Source of the DNA: Streptomyces sp. HUAS CB01
Lineage (GTDB): Bacteria > Actinomycetota > Actinomycetes > Streptomycetales > Streptomycetaceae
Reading direction: 5' to 3'
Length of the DNA stretch: 64,000 nt
NCBI RefSeq assembly: GCF_030406905.1
Contig: NZ_CP129137.1
Coordinates: 496,001-560,000 of the forward strand
This document shows, piece by piece, positions 4,724 through 46,441 of the stretch; position 1 is the first letter of the stretch, and every line of letters begins with the position of its first letter. The notes under the pieces were generated by a model, which saw only the letters and a program-made list of their open reading frames with translations, did not search any database and had not been told where the DNA came from. Both the position numbers and the translations under genes were made by a program.

Positions 4724-5269
4724 TTGGACACGACCTCACTGGCCGGGATCGAGTCGGTCGTCAAGCGCGGCAGAGCCGTGATGGCGGCCGACGACACCGC
4801 TGTCGTGGACGCGGTGAAGGAGACGGTACGGAGCGGCCGGACGGCGACGTTCTATCTGACCAGGTCCCAGTTCGACGCCGTCAACGCCTGGTACTGGACC
4901 CCCAGCCGGATGAAGCAGCTCGGTCTGGAGCCGGTGTCCGACGAGGAGATGGCCCGGATCACGGCGGAACTCGGCGCCGAGGCGTGCGGATCGGCCTACT
5001 CCAACCGGATCAAGTGCCCGTCGGGCCACGTCTACGGGGCGTTCGAATTCGTCAAGCAGGGAATCGAGGAGCACGGGCTCGAAGCCACCCGGGCCGTGTT
5101 CGCGCTCAAGGACACCGCCGTGATCCGCGCCAACCCGCACCAGCAGGTGCAGTGCGTCGAGTGCCGCCGCCGGCTCGCCACCCCGCACTACTACGTCTAC
5201 TGGGGCTACGGCTGCTGCGTGGATCTGGACGACACGTCGACCGCGGCGTTCGCGCTCCGGCACCGCTGA
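4724..5269 (+). CDS. Conserved hypothetical protein with putative zinc-ribbon cysteines
   Basis: A 181-residue protein I do not assign to a characterised family. The TTG at 4724 is chosen because GGAGGG at 4711-4716 is well spaced and the N-terminus LDTTSLAGIESV looks like a real start; upstream codons have non-coding composition. The middle carries IKCPSGHVYGAFEF and, about 45 residues later, VQCVECRRRLATPHYY followed by GYGCC. Together these supply a possible Cys/His metal site. The first half is rich in charged helices (TFYLTRSQFDAVNAWYW). No signal peptide or membrane segment is visible. It stands alone on the plus strand. Confidence 0.75.
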   Translation: MDTTSLAGIESVVKRGRAVMAADDTAVVDAVKETVRSGRTATFYLTRSQFDAVNAWYWTPSRMKQLGLEPVSDEEMARITAELGAEACGSAYSNRIKCPSGHVYGAFEFVKQGIEEHGLEATRAVFALKDTAVIRANPHQQVQCVECRRRLATPHYYVYWGYGCCVDLDDTSTAAFALRHR

Positions 5270-37673: not shown

Positions 37674-38055
37674 CCCACACCTCCAGTGCACTCGCGTCCT
37701 CCGGCACGGTGCGCCCGCCACGGAGTGCGACCCTGTGCTCAGGGTCGGCCTCGATGCGGAGCGGGTTGTGCTCTACCCGACTCGGCAGGTCGGTGAGGAA
37801 GACGCCGATGTCCCCGTCGCCGTCCTCCCGGCGGGTGCCGACGTTTCGGCCACGTCGGACACGGCGACCTGCTCGTTGGCTGCCAGAGGCGCTGTCGGCG
37901 CCCGCATCCGGGCGGGTAGCACTGGCGGTGGGGCGGCGCGGTTCCTCCCGCAGGCCGGAGGCGAGGTCCCGGGCCGTCTCGGAGGGCAGACCCCGGGTCG
38001 GCGCCAGGACGGGCCGCAGGTTCCTGCCGTTCGTGTCCGCGTCGGGCTGCCTCAT
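37663..38055 (-). CDS. Hypothetical protein overlapping the ackA start
   Basis: A 130-residue frame from the ATG at 38055, ending 11 bases inside ackA. The first two thirds are arginine/alanine-rich and could be non-coding. The last third (REDGDGDIGVFLTDLPSRVE, then HNPLRIEADPEHRVALRGG and VPEDASALEVWDEC) has balanced protein-like composition. AGGACAAGGGTT precedes the ATG. It may be a real partner of ackA or the surviving C-terminus of a decayed gene. I do not recognise the family. Confidence 0.4.
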   Translation of the reverse strand: MRQPDADTNGRNLRPVLAPTRGLPSETARDLASGLREEPRRPTASATRPDAGADSASGSQRAGRRVRRGRNVGTRREDGDGDIGVFLTDLPSRVEHNPLRIEADPEHRVALRGGRTVPEDASALEVWDEC

Positions 38056-38191
38056 AACCCTTGTCCTGCCGCCTGGTAGGCCTCGGTGATGCCGCGCCTT
38101 GCCGCTTCCTCCAGGCTGCCACCACAGGGAGGGATCCGCTCGTTCCCCCGTTCGGCAGCACGCCGCGCCTGCGAGCCGGGGCGCACCTAGC

Positions 38192-38728
38192 ATGCTGACT
38201 GTGCGACCCATTCCCCCGAAGATCGAGGGCGGCCGGCTGCAGGGCCTCCTGCAGCTCATCGAGGACGGCATCCACCTCGTCGTCGCGGCGCTCCTCGTAC
38301 TGCTCGCGGGGCTCCTGACGGTCGGGGTCGTCCACGACGTCATCAGGTCGATCCAGGGGCCGTACCGGGAGGAGACGGTCGTTCTCTCCGCCCTCGACAA
38401 CGGCCTTGTGCTGTTCATCGTCGCCGAGCTGCTCCACACCGTCCGCCTGACCATCAGGAACCAGACCCTCGACGCGGAGCCGTTCCTCGTCGTCGGGCTG
38501 ATTGCCGGCATCCGCAAGGTGCTCATCGTGACCGCCGAGGCGGAGAAGTCCTTCCGTTGGAACGTCGAGGGGATCGAACTGCTCGTCCTGGCGGGTCTGA
38601 TCCTCGTGATGGCGGCAGCGGTGTACGTGTGGCGGCGCTCGACGCGGCCGGCAGACTACTTCCCGCTCCAAGAGGCGCGGCGTTCCCCGTCACCGCCGCC
38701 GTCACCCACCCCGGTGCGCGGGGCCTGA
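38192..38728 (+). CDS. PsiE-like small membrane protein
   Basis: A 178-residue protein with four predicted membrane helices: VVAALLVLLAGLLTVGVVH, VVLSALDNGLVLFIVAELL, EPFLVVGLIAGIRKVLIVTA and ELLVLAGLILVMAAAVYVW. LLHTVRLTIRNQTLDAEPFL between helices 2 and 3 is characteristic of the phosphate-starvation-inducible PsiE family. The ATG at 38192 has no ribosome site and may be leaderless; a longer in-frame start at 38099 exists. Its function is unknown. The C-terminal tail is proline-rich. Confidence 0.75.
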   Translation: MLTVRPIPPKIEGGRLQGLLQLIEDGIHLVVAALLVLLAGLLTVGVVHDVIRSIQGPYREETVVLSALDNGLVLFIVAELLHTVRLTIRNQTLDAEPFLVVGLIAGIRKVLIVTAEAEKSFRWNVEGIELLVLAGLILVMAAAVYVWRRSTRPADYFPLQEARRSPSPPPSPTPVRGA

Positions 38729-38731
38729 TCC

Positions 38732-39430
38732 TCACCTTCCGCAGCCACGGCCGCCCGCACCCGCTGCTCCTCGTGAGCAGAGCCGACGCCCCGCTCCAGG
38801 AGTGCGGCTCAGGGGCATCGCGAGGTCCTCCAGGGCCCGCTTCTGCAGTTCCGTCCCGCGCCGCAGCACCGGGCTCCGGACCCCGGCGGCGACGCCTTCC
38901 CCGTTGTCGGGCGTACCGGGGAGCGGGCGCCCGCGGGCCTGCCGGCGCGGGCGTCTTCCCGCGCGTCGCCGCTCCCTGGCGATCCCCCTGACGCCTGGCC
39001 GAGCACGGCGGCCCCGTCGACCGACTCCCGCCCGCGGTCCCGCCCGGGTCCCCGGGCGCCGACGTCCGGTCGGCGAGCACGGCGACGACCGGACGAATGC
39101 GCTCGGCGAGGGCTCGAGGGCCATGGAGGGCCGGGGGCGGGTGCGTGCCTGTGATGGCGTCACGGCGGCAGCGTCCCGGGCCGTCATCAACGGCTCCGGG
39201 CCGAACGGAGCGGTCAGGTCGTGCCGCAGCCCGACGAGCGTACTCCGCCACACCGGCCAGGGCGTCGGCGAGCGCGTCACGCTGGGCTCCCGACGGCGGA
39301 TCGGAAACAGCAAGATCAGCACGGCCTCCGCCCGGTTGATCACGTCCATGGGGCCGTCGGTGCTGCGCCGGGCGCCGGTGGGGAGGACGACCGTGTGGTG
39401 GGCCGGGTGGGCCGGGCCGCCCAGGGGGTC
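38732..39430 (-). pseudogene. Remnant of a FUSC/aromatic-acid-exporter-like membrane protein
   Basis: The minus strand between the PsiE-like and reductase genes holds an interrupted coding sequence. One frame gives PMDVINRAEAVLILLFPIRRRE. The next frame gives RDALADALAGVAEYARRAAA. The first frame returns with PEPLMTARDAAAVTPSQART, and the second again with ALHGPRALAERIRPVVAVLA. These pieces in this order resemble the cytoplasmic C-terminal part of Streptomyces FUSC-type exporters. At least three frame changes and loss of the N-terminal membrane half mark it as a pseudogene. Confidence 0.5.
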
Positions 39431-39432
39431 CG

Positions 39433-41190
39433 TCAGAGGGAGAGGCGTTGCCTGGACTCGGACTCGCCCGCCACCACCCGACGCCCCTCGGGGCCCGCGG
39501 TGCGGACCAGGTTGCCCGTCTGCTCCCGGTGCTCGTGCACGAGGTGGATCGCCATGGCACCCTCACCGGCCGCCGAGGCCACCCGTTTGACCGAGCCGCT
39601 CCTGACGTCGCCGGCGGCGAAGACTCCGGGAAGGGTGGTCTCCAGCGGCAGCGGACCACGGCCGAGCGAGACCCACCGGGTCGCGTCGGCCGCCGCCTGG
39701 GCGTCGGCGCCGGTGAGGACGAAGCCCTTCTCGTCCAGGGCCAGCACGCCCCTGAGCCATTCCGTGCGCGGCCGGGCCCCGATGAACACGAAGAGCGCTG
39801 TGGCCGGCAGCTCCCGGCGCTCGCCGGTTGCGTTGTCCTCAACCGTCAGCGCCTCCAGCTTCTCCTCCCCGGAGACGCCCCGGACCTCGGTGTGGAGCAG
39901 CACCTCGATCTTCGGGTGCCGTTCCACCTGGTCCACCAGGTAGCGCGACATGTCCGCGTTGAGGTCACCGCCCCGGACAAGGAGGTGGACCCTGGACGCG
40001 TGGTTCGCGAGGAACAGCGCCGCCTGTCCGGCGGAGTTCCCGCCGCCGACCACGGCGACCGGCTCCGACTGGCAGAGACTGGCCTCGTGGATCGTCGCCG
40101 CGTAGTAGACGCTGGTGCCCTCCAAGCGGTCGATGCCGGGCACCTCGAGCCTGCGGTACCACACGCCCGAGGCGAGCACCACGGCGCCGGCCCGGGTCTG
40201 GGACCCGTCTGTGAAGGTGACGACGTACTCGTCGTCCTGCGGGGTGAGCCCGCTGACCTGGGCCGGCACCATGAGGCGGGCACCGAACTTGTGGGCCTGG
40301 AGTACCGCGCGTTCGATGAGCTCGCCCCCGGAGATGCCCGACGGGAAGCCAAGGTAGTTCTCGATGCGAGACGAGGTACCGGCCTGGCCTCCGGTGGCCA
40401 CGGCGTCTACTGTGACCGTCTTGAGGCCGTCGGAGGCACCGTACACGGCGGCGGCGAGTCCCGCGGGTCCCGCACCGATCACCATCACGTCGCACCGCCC
40501 GGCCTCCGGCGAGGGGGCGGGCAGCCCGATGAGCCGGGCGAGTTCGGCGTTGCTCGGATTGCGCAGCACACGCTCGCCCTTCCAGATGACGACTGGAGTC
40601 TCCTCGGGACGGATGGAGAACCGACGCAGCAGCGCCTCCGCCTCCCGGTCCTTCTCCAGGTCCACCCAGCGGTGGGGCAGCCGGTTGCGGGCGGCGAACT
40701 CACGCAGCCGCAGCGTGTCCGGTGAATAGCACGACCCCAGGATCCGGAAGCCGGCCCCCAGGCCGATGAGCAGATACCGGCGGCACAGGTAGGCGCGGAG
40801 GATCAGGTCGCCGAGGACGTGATCGCGGTCGACCAGGGCGCGCTGCCGGTCCACCGGTACGGCCAGTATTTCGCCCGCCTCGCGTACCACGGCGGTGTCG
40901 AACGCCGCCTGGCCCTCCAGCAGCCCGAGTTCACCCAGGAACCTGCCGGGTCCGTGCACCGCCACCGTGCGCTCGTCGGGCCCGCCGTGGTCGTGGAGGA
41001 TCTCGACGGTTCCGCTGAGGATCGCGAGGAACTCCCGGAACGGCTCGCCCTCGCGGTACAGCACCTCGCCATCGGCGGTCCTGCGGCGCTCACCGTGCGC
41101 GGTCAGGTCCTCGAGCTGCTCCGGTGTCAGGCGCGGGAAAGCCCCGTGCCGGTCCGGTGTCTCACTCTGTTTGTGCTCGGCCGTGCTCAT
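39433..41190 (-). CDS. Fusion of cyclic-nucleotide-binding domain, thioredoxin-like domain and thioredoxin-reductase-like flavoprotein
   Basis: A 585-residue three-part protein. Residues about 20-135 form a cNMP-binding (CRP-type) beta-roll with GRFLGELGLLEGQAAFDTAV, where the phosphate-binding Arg of cAMP receptors is absent. Residues 140-222 are thioredoxin/glutaredoxin-like with one Cys (GSCYSPDTLRLREF, Cys154) and TPVVIWKGERVLRNPS. Residues 233-560 are a thioredoxin-reductase fold with FAD motif GAGPAG (239-244) and NAD(P) motif VVGGGNSAGQAA. The redox-active CxxC of real thioredoxin reductases is missing (YYAATIHEASLCQ). The start overlaps the UBP zinc-finger gene stop as TGATG. It is probably a ligand-gated redox enzyme or sensor. 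Confidence 0.9.
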   Translation of the reverse strand: MSTAEHKQSETPDRHGAFPRLTPEQLEDLTAHGERRRTADGEVLYREGEPFREFLAILSGTVEILHDHGGPDERTVAVHGPGRFLGELGLLEGQAAFDTAVVREAGEILAVPVDRQRALVDRDHVLGDLILRAYLCRRYLLIGLGAGFRILGSCYSPDTLRLREFAARNRLPHRWVDLEKDREAEALLRRFSIRPEETPVVIWKGERVLRNPSNAELARLIGLPAPSPEAGRCDVMVIGAGPAGLAAAVYGASDGLKTVTVDAVATGGQAGTSSRIENYLGFPSGISGGELIERAVLQAHKFGARLMVPAQVSGLTPQDDEYVVTFTDGSQTRAGAVVLASGVWYRRLEVPGIDRLEGTSVYYAATIHEASLCQSEPVAVVGGGNSAGQAALFLANHASRVHLLVRGGDLNADMSRYLVDQVERHPKIEVLLHTEVRGVSGEEKLEALTVEDNATGERRELPATALFVFIGARPRTEWLRGVLALDEKGFVLTGADAQAAADATRWVSLGRGPLPLETTLPGVFAAGDVRSGSVKRVASAAGEGAMAIHLVHEHREQTGNLVRTAGPEGRRVVAGESESRQRLSL

Positions 41191-41453
41191 CAGACCAGGG
41201 CCTCGTGGACGTAGCACCAGCGCCAGTCCTCTCCCGGCTGGAAGGACCGCACGATTGGGTGACCGTCGCTGCCCGCGTGCCGCCTGGCGTGCTTGAGGGG
41301 CGAGGAGTCGCAGCAGCCGACGTGCCCGCAGGTGAGGCAGAGTCGCAGGTGCACCCATGGGGAATGCTCCATGAGGCACTCCTCGCAGCCCTCCGGGGTA
41401 CGCGGCGTCACCGGGCGCACCATCGCGAGGTGCGGGTCGGGAATCGTGGCCAT
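41190..41453 (-). CDS. UBP-type zinc finger protein
   Basis: An 87-residue protein made almost entirely of a UBP-type (ZnF-UBP) zinc finger. Probable ligands are Cys23, Cys26, Cys39, Cys42, Cys47 or Cys48, His55, His59 and His65, within [19 protein letters not shown] and [20 protein letters not shown]. In eukaryotes this fold binds the C-terminal Gly-Gly of ubiquitin; bacteria lack ubiquitin, so the partner is unknown. AAGGAGAACCCCT precedes the ATG at 41453. Its stop overlaps the start of the cNMP/FAD-reductase gene, so the two are translationally coupled and probably act together. Confidence 0.9.
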
Positions 41454-41474
41454 GAGGGGTTCTCCTTCCGTGGG

Positions 41475-41668
41475 CGGACTGCTCGGCCGCGGCCCGCGAT
41501 GGTCTCGTCCACCCAGCGGCGCAGCCCCGGGGCGAGACCGGTCCGGCGGGACATCTCCGCTCACTTGTCGAGCAGGACCAGGGTCGGCACGGCCGTGACC
41601 TGGAACCGCTGCGCGAGCGCCGACGACCGGTCGACGGCGACCTTGACGAGCTCGAGCTCGCCGGCAGG
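41475..41668 (-). pseudogene. Thioredoxin C-terminal fragment
   Basis: The minus strand reads [20 protein letters not shown] then [14 protein letters not shown] and stops at TGA 41561-41563. The following bases continue, after a one-step frame change, as [20 protein letters not shown], the rest of a thioredoxin tail. It resembles the C-terminal half of the intact thioredoxin at 45983. The N-terminal half with the WCGPC site is gone, replaced by dnaK sequence. Confidence 0.7.
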
Positions 41669-42369
41669 CTGCTGTCTGTCTCACCGAACTCAGCTCGGTC
41701 CCGGCCTTGTCCGCAGCCTCGAACAGCCGCTGCAGCGCGTACGGGCCCTTGCGCAGGTCGATGCCGTTCCCCTGCTGGAACTTGTCGGCGATGTGGTCCA
41801 CCAGGCGCCGGTCGAAGCCGTCGCCGCGCAGGTGGCTGCCGCCCGCCGTGGACGCACATCGACCACGTCATCGCCGACGTCGAGGAGGCTGACGTCGAAG
41901 GTACCGCCGCCCGGGTCGAAGACGTGCCCGGTCTCGTGCTGCTTCCTGTCCGGACCGGAGGCCGGTGCGGCCGCGGTCGGCTCGTTGGCATGTGCGGCAC
42001 GACGAGGCCGGCCATACGTCCGGCTTGCTCGGGGCGGCGCCGTGCGCTGGGCGTCGTTGAGATGGGCGGACATGGTGATGACCGCCTCCGTCACGCGTTG
42101 CCCGCGGCGTCGGCGAGCTTTCGTAGCACCAGTGTGGTGATCTCCTCCGGTGCGTACACCTTGTCGCGGACGTTGAAGCGGGCGTTGCCGTGCTCGGCGG
42201 GGGCGATGTCGAAGCCGACAGACGGTTCCCTCGGGGTTGGGGATCGCCTGCCTGCGGGCGAGCCGGCCGACAAAGGGTTCGCCATTGTGATGACCGCGGC
42301 CTCCCCGCCCTGCCATGCGGCGATCGCGGAACTGATCGGGCCGAGGCCGATTCCGACTGCCTTGGACAT
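41669..42369 (-). pseudogene. dnaK fragment with deletions and frameshifts
   Basis: The minus strand begins MSKAVGIGLGPISSAIAAWQ and continues to FNVRDKVYAPEEITTLVLRK, in step with DnaK but missing the segment around residues 55-85. After a stop near 42091 the next frame resumes with [40 protein letters not shown] and [11 protein letters not shown] third frame gives [20 protein letters not shown] and [12 protein letters not shown]. It then breaks off into the thioredoxin fragment at about 41668. The intact homologue is at 51050-52954. It is clearly a pseudogene. Confidence 0.85.
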
Positions 42370-42915
42370 AGGAGTCCTCATTCGTCGAAAATCCTGCAAC
42401 ATGGGGGTGGGCCCGCAAAGCCGCGTGCGGCACTGGCAACCGGTCAACGGCGCGGAGCTGGACGCGTCGAAGCGAGTTTCCGGGCCTCTGGGCGCTCCAG
42501 CCGATCGAGCGTCGCGGCGCCGGGGTACATGCGGCCTGGCGTTTCCGCCCGGGTCCCAATTCACCCGGCTGCCCGAGCCGACCAGTACAAACAACGATAA
42601 CAAAGTGGGCCCCCCGCGGGGTATGGGTGGGTGGCATCTTGGTGGAGAGCCCGCACCACCTCACCTCCCTCCCCAGCGGCACAAGCGCCGCCTGACCAGG
42701 ACGCTGCGGTCCGGCTGCGCTGCGGCCGGCCTGGATCGACGGATCGCACGCCCGTCCGACTGCTCGGGCAGTCGGACGCCTGGGCCTGGCAGGGTAATAC
42801 GGGGAGGCTAATTCGCCCCGACATGCGCATGCGTTCTCGCGTCCCGTCGGCAAGGCTGACTGGTAAGCCCAGGAGCCGGGAAGCACCCCGGCTCCCGCAG
42901 CCGGAGGTTGCCGTC
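42370..42915. other. Intergenic region between dnaK remnant and DUF1931 gene
   Basis: About 545 bases with no supported gene. It includes an unusually AT-rich patch (AGTACAAACAACGATAAC, 42583-42600), a CCCCCCGCGGGG run, a perfect hairpin at 42753-42778, and GGTAATACGGGGAGGCTAA (42795-42813) that may be part of the DUF1931 promoter. Confidence 0.5.
42753..42778. repeat. Perfect 11-bp hairpin with TCGG loop
   Basis: CGTCCGACTGC, TCGG, GCAGTCGGACG. It lies 138 bases upstream of the DUF1931 start and far from any stop codon, so a terminator role is not obvious. It may be an RNA structure in the 5' region of that gene or an operator. Confidence 0.6.
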
Positions 42916-43692: not shown

Positions 43693-44184
43693 TCAACGAC
43701 CGCCGCTCTCGCTGCTTTCGGTGATCTGGATATGACGGGGCTTGGCGACCTCCGCCTTGGGGACGGTGACCGTGAGCACACCGGCCGACATCTCCGCTGT
43801 GACCTTCTCGGCGTCCACATCTCCGGGCAGCCGCAGCCGGTACTCGAAGGCACCGGTTCGGCGGGTGCTACGGCGCAGGACGCCCTTGCGCTCCTTTTCC
43901 TTGATCTCTCCGCTGATCACCAGCTCCTGTCCGTTGGCCTCGACGTCGATGTCCTTGCTCTTGACGCCAGGGAGTTCGATCTCGACCACGATGGCATCAT
44001 CAGTCTCCGTGACGTCCGCGAGGGGGGTCCACGCCACCGCGGGCGCGGCGCCGCCCACCGTGGATTCGAGCAATCCGCTCATCTGGGTGAGCAGTTCGTC
44101 GAATTCCGTCAGCGGATTGCGGGCCCACCCGAGGGGCCGCTCCATCGTTCCGCCACTGCGGTGGCGCCGGACGGGCAAGGTCAT
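43693..44184 (-). CDS. hsp20: Hsp20/alpha-crystallin small heat shock protein
   Basis: A 163-residue holdase chaperone. The alpha-crystallin domain covers about residues 50-150: WTPLADVTETDDAIVVEIEL, PGVKSKDIDVEANGQELVIS, GEIKEKERKG and the terminal-side AGVLTVTVPKAEV. The C-terminal ITESSESGGR lacks a clear I-x-I anchor. Its ATG overlaps the stop of the cNMP/MFS chimera as ATGA, making it the last gene of the minus-strand chaperone operon. The mycobacterial HspX relative is the hallmark of the DosR regulon. An ATG at codon 14 (MERPLGW) is an alternative start. Confidence 0.93.
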   Translation of the reverse strand: MTLPVRRHRSGGTMERPLGWARNPLTEFDELLTQMSGLLESTVGGAAPAVAWTPLADVTETDDAIVVEIELPGVKSKDIDVEANGQELVISGEIKEKERKGVLRRSTRRTGAFEYRLRLPGDVDAEKVTAEMSAGVLTVTVPKAEVAKPRHIQITESSESGGR

Positions 44185-45977
44185 CGCCCATCACCTCCGT
44201 CTTCTCGTGGGTTCGCGGCAGTACCGCCTTCCTCGCCCGGCGCGGAGGGCCGGCCGGGCGGAGCACAGATGTCATCGGGCAGGCTCTGCGCACGCGATTC
44301 GCGGGCCGCTTCGCGCAGCGCCTTATGGAAGCGTCCAGGGCCCCATGCCCGTCCCCCCACGATGCGCTCGAGATCCTCGCGTCCGGTCGGGCCGCGCTCG
44401 GCGAGAGCCTGGGAGACCTGCTCGATCTCGTCGTCGAGGGCTTGATCGGCCATGGCCGAGGTCCGGCTCGCCGTGCCTGCGGTGCCGACCAAGCCCCGGC
44501 GAGTAGAACTGCCGGTTCCGGTCCCGGGACGGCACCTGAGCCCGCCTGCGCGCTCGCGCTGTGTGCGGCGGGCCTTGCGGTCTGCGATCCGCTGTTGCCG
44601 CTCGCGCACCGCCCGCCGGACATCTTCGGGGAGGTCGCGCTCGCGTACGGCTGCCGGGGAGGGTTCGTTCCGCGCGTCGGCGTCCGCCTCCTCCGCGGTC
44701 AGCGGCCTGGCGATGTTCTCCAGGGACTGCTGTTCGGCACGGACGCCGAAGAACAGCTCGGCGAGTCCGCCGAGGGCCATGGCCACGGCTCCGATGACGA
44801 AGCCGAGGGCCACCAGACCGGAGTCGCCGCTGTGAACGAACCGTCCGAAGAGCAGTGGTCCGGTGATGCCTCCGATGGCCGTACCGACGGCGAAGAAGAG
44901 CGAGATGGACAGTGCGCGAGTCTCCATGGGGAACACCTCGCCGACCGTCAGGTACGCCGAACTCGCTCCCGCCGAGGCCACGAAGAAGGTCACCGACACC
45001 AGCAGGAAGAAGGTCCATGCGGTCAGGGAGCCGTTGCTCGTCAGCACAGCGAGCAGGACGGAGGCGGCCGCCGCACCGAAGTAGGTTCCTGTGATCATCG
45101 GCTTCCGGCCGACCGTGTCGAAGAAGCGGCCCAGAAGCAGCGGCCCGAGGAAGTTGGCGACGGCGAAGAGGGCCATGAAGTACGGGACCGAGCCCGAGCC
45201 GGTGCCGAAGAAGCCGCTGAGGATGGTCCCCAGGCCGAACACGATCGCGTTGTACAGGAATGCCTGGCCGATGAAGAGCGCCAGTCCGAGCAGGGCGCGG
45301 CGCGGGTACCGTCGTATGGCGACCCGCGCGATCTCGGTGAACGGGATGACCTTGGGCTGCCGGACGGTGATCGCCTCGCCCGGCTCCGGCAGGTCCCCGG
45401 TCGTGAGGGACATGCAGCTCCGGACCTGGCCCTGCAGCCAGCGGTGCGGCAGCCGGTTGCGGGCTGCGAACTCCCGTAGCCGCAGGGTGTCGGGCGAGCA
45501 GCGGGAGCCGAGGATGCGAAACCCCGCGCCGGAGCCGATGAGGGCGGTGCGGCGGGCCGGGTAGGCACGCAGGATGAAGGAGTCGAGGATGGGATCCCCG
45601 GCGACGAGGCCCCGCGACCGGTCGACCGGGACGGAGCGGACCTCACCGTCCTCCCGCGCCCACGCCGTGTGGAAGGCCACCTGCCCCTGGAGCAACCCCA
45701 GTTCACCGAGGAGGCGGCCGGGACCGTGCACGTTCATCACGTGCTCTCCCGCGGTGCCATGGCGCTCGGTGATCGCGATCGAACCGCTGTGGACGACGAA
45801 GAACCGCTCGCACGGCTCTCCTTCCCTGATCGGGAGCTGACCGGCGCGAACGGCCAGGCCGTGAGCGCGACCGGTGAGGAAGCCGACCTGCGCGTCCGTC
45901 AGCCGGGGATTCGCTCCGTACAGATCCGGGATCTCGGGGAGTGCGGTCTCCTTGGGCTCCTCCGTCGGCCGGCCCAC
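44181..45977 (-). CDS. Chimeric protein: cNMP-binding domain fused to the C-terminal half of an MFS transporter
   Basis: A 598-residue protein with an unusual build. Residues about 20-140 are a cNMP-binding beta-roll (GRLLGELGLLQGQVAFHTAW, again without the cAMP-contact Arg). Residues 146-180 match the linker of the cNMP/FAD-reductase at 39433 (GAGFRILGSRCSPDTLRLRE) up to RLPHRW. At about residue 181 the sequence switches to an MFS transporter and shows only six membrane helices, with the GRFFDTVGRKP loop of the second half. A charged tail and a winged-helix-like end (REDLERIVGGRAWGPGRFHK) follow. The start at GTG 45977 follows GGGAGG; GTG 45986, overlapping the trx stop, is an alternative. 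Confidence 0.8.
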   Translation of the reverse strand: MGRPTEEPKETALPEIPDLYGANPRLTDAQVGFLTGRAHGLAVRAGQLPIREGEPCERFFVVHSGSIAITERHGTAGEHVMNVHGPGRLLGELGLLQGQVAFHTAWAREDGEVRSVPVDRSRGLVAGDPILDSFILRAYPARRTALIGSGAGFRILGSRCSPDTLRLREFAARNRLPHRWLQGQVRSCMSLTTGDLPEPGEAITVRQPKVIPFTEIARVAIRRYPRRALLGLALFIGQAFLYNAIVFGLGTILSGFFGTGSGSVPYFMALFAVANFLGPLLLGRFFDTVGRKPMITGTYFGAAAASVLLAVLTSNGSLTAWTFFLLVSVTFFVASAGASSAYLTVGEVFPMETRALSISLFFAVGTAIGGITGPLLFGRFVHSGDSGLVALGFVIGAVAMALGGLAELFFGVRAEQQSLENIARPLTAEEADADARNEPSPAAVRERDLPEDVRRAVRERQQRIADRKARRTQRERAGGLRCRPGTGTGSSTRRGLVGTAGTASRTSAMADQALDDEIEQVSQALAERGPTGREDLERIVGGRAWGPGRFHKALREAARESRAQSLPDDICAPPGRPSAPGEEGGTAANPREDGGDGR

Positions 45978-45982
45978 CGTGT

Positions 45983-46437
45983 TCACCCTCCCGCGGCGGT
46001 TTGCCGGCCCGCCACGGCCTGTTCGACCCACTCACGCAAAACGTGCGCGGGTGCCGCCCCGGCCTGCCGGGCGACCGTCTCGCCCTTGTCCAGGACGAGC
46101 AGCGTGGGCACCGCCTGCACCTCGAACCGCCGGCTGAGCCGCGGGTTCCGATCGACGTCGACCTTTACGAGCTTGATCCGTCCGGCGAGGTCGAGGGCGA
46201 CCTGTTCGAGGGCGGGGCTGACCATGCGGCAGGGACCGCACCAGGTGGCCCAGAGATCGACCAGGACGGGCATGGTGGCGTTGTCGGCGACCTCGGCGAA
46301 GTCGTCGTCGCCCGCGTCGACGATCCAGGGCAGGGGCTGCTTGCAGTGACCGCACTTGGGGCGTCCCTCGGCGGCCACGGGAACCCGGTTCCCGCGCTCA
46401 CAGTTCGGGCAGGTCACCGTCGTCGTTCGGGTGGTGT

Positions 46438-46441
<4 letters not shown>
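45983..46441 (-). CDS. Thioredoxin with N-terminal zinc finger (TrxC/Trx2 type)
   Basis: A 152-residue thioredoxin. The N-terminal zinc ribbon uses CPNCERGN and CGHCKQP. The thioredoxin fold follows with the active site [20 protein letters not shown] and the cis-Pro loop [13 protein letters not shown]. This arrangement matches TrxC, a stress-inducible disulfide reductase and chaperone. It overlaps the end of clpB by 4 bases (start 46441, clpB stop 46438), so it is coupled in the chaperone operon. A C-terminal copy fragment occurs at 41475-41668. Confidence 0.94.

Follow-up and report, generated by a model that had tools for sequence, protein, structure and literature searches.

A probable deletion scar in a Streptomyces stress-gene island that joins a cNMP-type domain in frame to the second half of an MFS transporter

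A chromosomal stretch of 64,000 nucleotides from Streptomyces sp. HUAS CB01, referred to here as the window, contains one open frame in which a domain of the cyclic nucleotide-binding (cNMP) type precedes the last six helices of a major facilitator superfamily (MFS) transporter. The frame raises the question of whether it encodes a new kind of membrane protein or is what a deletion has left of two genes. The analysis argues for the latter: the frame is best read as a deletion scar in a stress-gene island, with about 2 kb lost between the linker of a reductase and the central loop of an MFS transporter, and a probability of roughly 0.85 is assigned to this reading. The frame consists of three pieces, its parental genes are adjacent in relatives, no second example occurs in the sets searched, and other genes nearby are eroded. 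The features that define the locus are as follows.

44181..45977, reverse strand: chimeric open frame, 598 codons from a GTG start (open reading frame listing and profile search)
45438..45977, reverse strand: first piece (nt 1-540 of the frame), cNMP-type domain and about 35 residues of linker of a cNMP-domain thioredoxin-reductase-like protein
45397..45435, reverse strand: second piece (nt 543-581), 39 bp of the 3' part of a reductase gene, in the reductase frame
44181..45396, reverse strand: third piece, MFS transporter from the central loop onward, with the last six helices and the cytoplasmic tail
44493..44513, reverse strand: tail stretch GSSTRRG, outside the frame of relatives, between a 4-nt loss and a 1-nt gain
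45983..46441, reverse strand: trx (thioredoxin), upstream neighbor of the fusion
43693..44184, reverse strand: hsp20, its start overlapping the fusion stop as ATGA

The first-pass annotation had described a single frame of 598 codons with a cNMP-type domain and the last six MFS helices and tail, which is borne out by the open reading frames and by profiles, as is its placement between trx and hsp20 with coupling-type start and stop signals. The local gene order is clpB-trx-fusion-hsp20, and the fusion starts 5 nt past the trx stop; an alternative in-frame GTG at 46031 would extend the frame to 616 codons. The length of the open frame is weak evidence by itself, because two of the other frames across this stretch stay open for 432 and 439 codons.

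Near the N-terminus of the fusion, the Pfam profile cNMP_binding (PF00027) is matched at 3.7e-15, and the DNA matches to cNMP-domain reductases, among those listed, end at nt 540 (window 45438), with one ending at 543. The cNMP-domain thioredoxin-disulfide reductase, a name taken from the plasmid record L128, shares its N-terminal cNMP-type domain and linker with the fusion, whereas its FAD and NAD(P)H domains are absent from the fusion save for about 13 residues. ATII-TrxR is a described member of this enzyme class that carries a cNMP-type domain, according to the available part of the published account (PMC6544261). No Pyr_redox family of Pfam was detected in the fusion, although these families are present in a paralogue within the window.

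39433..42015, reverse strand: open frame ending in an intact paralogue, cNMP-domain thioredoxin-reductase-like

The possibility that the N-terminal part is a recent duplicate of this paralogue was considered and rejected, the two being only 57% identical over residues 13-182. The cNMP-type domain can also be aligned to PKA RI-alpha chains, in which we take the Arg of PRAAT to be the phosphate-binding Arg of the binding cassette. At this canonical position the fusion has Ala, and its 33 relatives have Ala (29), Thr (2), Gly (1) or Ser (1). Since the paralogue at 39433-42015 and the 32 other relatives are without the canonical Arg, the ligand of the domain, if there is any, may not be a cyclic nucleotide.

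For the MFS part, the Sugar_tr profile of Pfam is matched at positions 251-449 of 452 and NCBIfam TIGR00883 at 217-395 of 400. Three general profiles are instead matched in their first half (MFS_1 of Pfam at 9-184 of 347, Tet(E) at 19-176 of 405, and TIGR00880 of NCBIfam at 3-115 of 141), probably because the two MFS halves resemble each other. The assignment to the second half is settled by alignment to full-length relatives, with about 85% identity to L001 and L002 there, and the DNA matches to the closest MFS genes, among those listed, begin at nt 576-587. With the reductase matches stopping at nt 540, the switch point earlier placed at 45431-45437 was right to within a few bases. The two six-helix halves are not both present, no N-half being found upstream of the C-half in the fusion. 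Compared with the MFS transporter of the stress island, the fusion has the same last six helices and long cytoplasmic tail but lacks the first six helices. The nearest NCBIfam family for the full-length relatives is TIGR00895 (aromatic acid/H+ symport), matched below its cut-off. In the tail, a 4-nt loss near 44513 and a 1-nt gain near 44496-44499, about 14 bases apart, sum to -3, so that the frame runs on to the start of hsp20.

A structure model contains six long helices over residues 225-410, at pLDDT 75-92 per ten-residue block. It was built on MFS rows only, a mixed cNMP and MFS alignment having been discarded with its cNMP rows scattered across the MFS region; the first 197 residues thus lacked aligned relatives, and their pLDDT below 50 is uninformative because only MFS rows were used. 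A fold search with the model returned MFS structures at weak E-values (best 7.5e-4, with 2 of 396 matches at or below 0.001) and adds little. By sequence, no solved relative of the MFS half was found at E 0.01.

The earlier description in two parts, the front of a reductase and the back of an MFS transporter, is right as to both parts and missed a third at the join. The stretch of nt 543-581 (window 45435-45397) is 90% identical over 39 bp (E 1.9e-7) to a reductase remnant in the genome G185, and the next-best place for it is the homologous site in Actinacidiphila soli (L002 5224-5268, E 0.010).

L138 9221-10351 (G185): broken reductase and MFS remnants

In the reductase frame, the stretch gives LWQGQGRNCMSLETG in G185 and RWLQGQVRSCMSLTTG in the fusion. 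A reductase match between the cNMP and the MFS parts means that there are three pieces rather than two, and we infer from the sequence comparison that the 39 bp probably derived from the same reductase copy as the first piece. Join 1 carries three extra bases, and short words are common to the fusion, G185 and L002 at both joins (CTGG at the first, ACCGG at the second), as identified by eye, with proxy parents and in DNA of 70.5% GC.

The arrangement of the parental genes can be followed through the related loci. In L130-L135, the island reads dnaK ... clpB-trx-[cNMP reductase]-hsp20-MFS, with hsp20 between the reductase and the MFS gene; in L136 the reductase is reduced to a scrap, and L139 is without the MFS gene. 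In L002 the MFS gene comes immediately after the reductase and has no hsp20 right behind it, and G185 has its reductase and MFS remnants in the same order. In G318, hsp20 comes immediately after the MFS gene, which has no reductase before it. In the same genome, the hsp20 behind the full MFS gene (L129 8424-8719) looks frameshifted and truncated. The full order reductase-MFS-hsp20 occurs in no single locus, and because only its two halves are seen, this order in the ancestor of the window is itself a reconstruction. On the scale of L002, which serves as a proxy parent, the three pieces lie at ...4229, 5224-5268 and 6284 onward, corresponding to about 994 and 1015 nt missing; given that the reductase and the MFS gene are adjacent in relatives, about 2 kb has therefore been lost. 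The proposal that a deletion fused two genes and took away the reductase domains along with the transporter's first half is supported, with the parents adjacent in L002 and G185 and with neither Pyr_redox domains nor an MFS N-half in the frame.

On this basis, the ancestral run would have been clpB-trx-[cNMP-domain thioredoxin reductase]-[12-helix MFS transporter]-hsp20, from which about 2 kb would have been lost between the linker codon HRW of the reductase and the central loop of the MFS transporter, while 39 bp from the 3' end of the reductase would have stayed behind or been inserted where the ends met. The likely cause is a double-strand break repaired by mutagenic end joining, either in one event that captured a local fragment or in two successive deletions of about 1 kb, which would give the same product. 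All three pieces kept their original reading frames, and the open frame of 598 codons thus remains. The available part of a study of repair scars in Streptomyces (PMC5869714) describes scars of which 50% show microhomology of 1-6 nt and two contain inserts, of 42 or 83 bp, that came from nearby. The combination of a deletion and a short insert of local origin, here 39 bp matching the reductase 3' part, resembles those end-joining scars as far as that text describes them (PMC5869714), and the short words at the two joins may or may not be microhomology of the same kind. The published scars, however, were induced with I-SceI and seen directly, according to the same text (PMC5869714), whereas the origin of the fusion, and with it the role of end joining, is deduced from comparison.

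The neighborhood of the fusion bears other marks of erosion. About 2 kb from the fusion, the region at 37.9-42.4 kb looks like a second, much-eroded copy of the island, in which the UBP zinc finger and the 39433 reductase are intact, the latter being 89% identical to a protein of the NBC_01001 plasmid.

41489..42400, reverse strand: dnaK'-trx' deletion scar, a broken dnaK (to residue 272), about 7 nt, then trx residues 86-146
37922-39332, reverse strand: FUSC-family gene remnant and downstream flank, lacking stretches that plasmid NBC_01001 has

The trx' remnant of the dnaK'-trx' scar contains an in-frame stop. In G185, the reductase remnant has a stop inside, and the MFS remnant, whose 197-bp match to the window has 93% identity (13 differences, of which 6 change an amino acid), has a frame change and a jump from residue 130 to about 432; both parental genes have thus been lost in pieces elsewhere too. 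Decay in sister strains had been named beforehand as evidence against a functional fusion, and it is seen to the extent that both parents are broken in G185, in a comparison that includes no strain of the source species. The chaperone island dnaK-grpE-dnaJ-cbpM-clpB-trx-reductase is also found on the Streptomyces plasmids L127 and L128, and may therefore move between replicons.

A search for fusions of cNMP and MFS domains in other genomes, as the first-pass annotation had advised, found no second example among the examined loci, the matches listed for genomes of the genus, and the plasmids. The examined loci gave 122 hits to the MFS C-half that span 150 residues or more, a number that includes repeat fetches of one place; 119 have an MFS N-half directly upstream, and a cNMP domain precedes the other three, each a copy of the locus in the window. 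Some protein matches extend past the join in the upstream direction, and in the fetched loci the MFS matches there have an ordinary MFS N-half upstream. In a DNA search of 392 genus genomes, taken from a larger group and with the source genome among them, no listed match other than that of the window itself spans nt 540 to 575. None of 27 plasmid records with protein matches and none of 34 with DNA matches covers 80% of the query, and a scan of genome contigs yielded 32 loci, the fusion being in none of them. Genomes very near the window's own may be missing from some of the collections searched. A wider cNMP-MFS family behind the fusion was considered and set aside, none being found in the listed genus matches, the 32 scanned loci or the plasmid records. 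Fusions of MFS and cNMP domains are already in print, with the fused domains usually C-terminal according to the available portion of a review. As described there, they resemble the present frame in having both domain types in one chain; the present frame differs in carrying the domain at its N-terminus and in having half of an MFS transporter.

The degree of constraint on the two halves was estimated over the whole branch leading to the window, a branch that may lie mostly before the fusion. Of 62 columns with at least 95% conservation among relatives, the cNMP part deviates at 7, L140P and L49P among them, more than any other of 34 sequences; this excess may reflect only a long branch, because the runners-up, two distant relatives, are close with 6 of 68 each. 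Its pN/pS is 0.50-0.67 (0.27-1.01 among relatives, median 0.45), and its lone changes are 17 amino-acid to 5 synonymous, against 18 to 7 in total in relatives. The MFS half ranks third of 35 sequences for departures from conserved columns (4 of 127); its pN/pS against 10 relatives is 0.22-0.28 (median 0.224 and range 0.112-0.308 for the relatives' own pairs), with lone changes of 9 amino-acid to 8 synonymous versus 23 to 22 in the others. Such figures argue against an old neutral relic, and are compatible both with a recent scar and with a young gene. A frame that is open through two joins and cancelling indels, under ordinary constraint, fits a recent scar or some remaining use, and the lack of any loss of constraint in the MFS half leaves room for a young gene.

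The fusion is best read as an in-frame deletion remnant, which may still be translated along with trx and hsp20 on either side. In MFS proteins the central loop and the two termini are cytoplasmic, so membrane insertion with a cytoplasmic cNMP-type domain is conceivable, and the product, if made, would place a cNMP-fold domain at the cytoplasmic face of a half-bundle of six helices. Lacking a catalytic domain and one half of the transport path, it is probably inactive both as a reductase and as a transporter; we infer a loss of function, and substrate carriage by the half path is unlikely. It is improbable that the frame is a chimeric gene soon after birth, whose membrane-anchored cNMP-fold product is made, inserted and used, for instance in regulating another MFS protein. 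A newborn protein in which the cNMP-fold domain regulates or anchors a six-helix MFS half, itself forming dimers or pairing with another MFS protein, would be in keeping with the open frame and its cancelling indels, the plausible start signal after trx and the ATGA overlap with hsp20, the six helices modeled at pLDDT 75-92, and the maintained constraint on the MFS half. Little credence is nevertheless given to it: among the genomes searched, the listed matches place it in one only, both parents are decaying in G185, the phosphate-binding position is Ala in the fusion and in most relatives, the conserved cNMP positions are departed from more often than in any other of the 34 sequences, and an MFS transport path requires both halves. 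The ligand-gated half-transporter of the first-pass annotation is not supported, the frame occurring in no other searched genome and lacking the canonical Arg, with its parents broken in G185 and at least two more island genes eroded nearby (dnaK'-trx' and FUSC).

A useless protein could also have its frame kept for carrying ribosomes from trx to the hsp20 start, in which case stops or frameshifts would cut hsp20 output. The ATGA overlap and the -4 and +1 tail indels, whose sum leaves the reading frame intact up to the hsp20 start, agree with such a role, as does G318, where the same MFS tail runs into hsp20 with the MFS stop one codon earlier. Chance suffices for the same outcome, however, since about 2% of point changes in the fusion frame make a stop, 30 random changes leave it open with a probability of about 0.5, and a random second indel restores the frame in about one case of three; moreover, hsp20 has its own GGAGG just upstream. 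This explanation is accordingly regarded as unlikely, if worth keeping in mind. That the join or the cancelling tail indels are absent from the chromosome, through misassembly or sequencing error, is very improbable: the 1-nt gain does sit in a G run near 44496, and gains of this kind are a common type of sequencing error, but the contig reaches beyond 7.5 Mb in a genome of 6 contigs, and the 39-bp piece at the join is about 10% off its best match, and the loci searched offer no closer source.

The deletion scar that is the preferred reading offers a well-resolved case in which a deletion left a long chimera in frame, its join holding a short fragment of local origin, with a second gene-joining deletion about 2 kb away. 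It would be an example of erosion in such soil-bacterium chromosomes rather than of a new kind of transporter, and it serves as a caution that long open frames in GC-rich genomes need not be new fusion proteins. If the young-gene reading were true, the deletion would have given a redox-and-chaperone operon a membrane-anchored cNMP-fold protein. With sister strains sequenced, the locus would be a good one for catching the birth or death of a gene.
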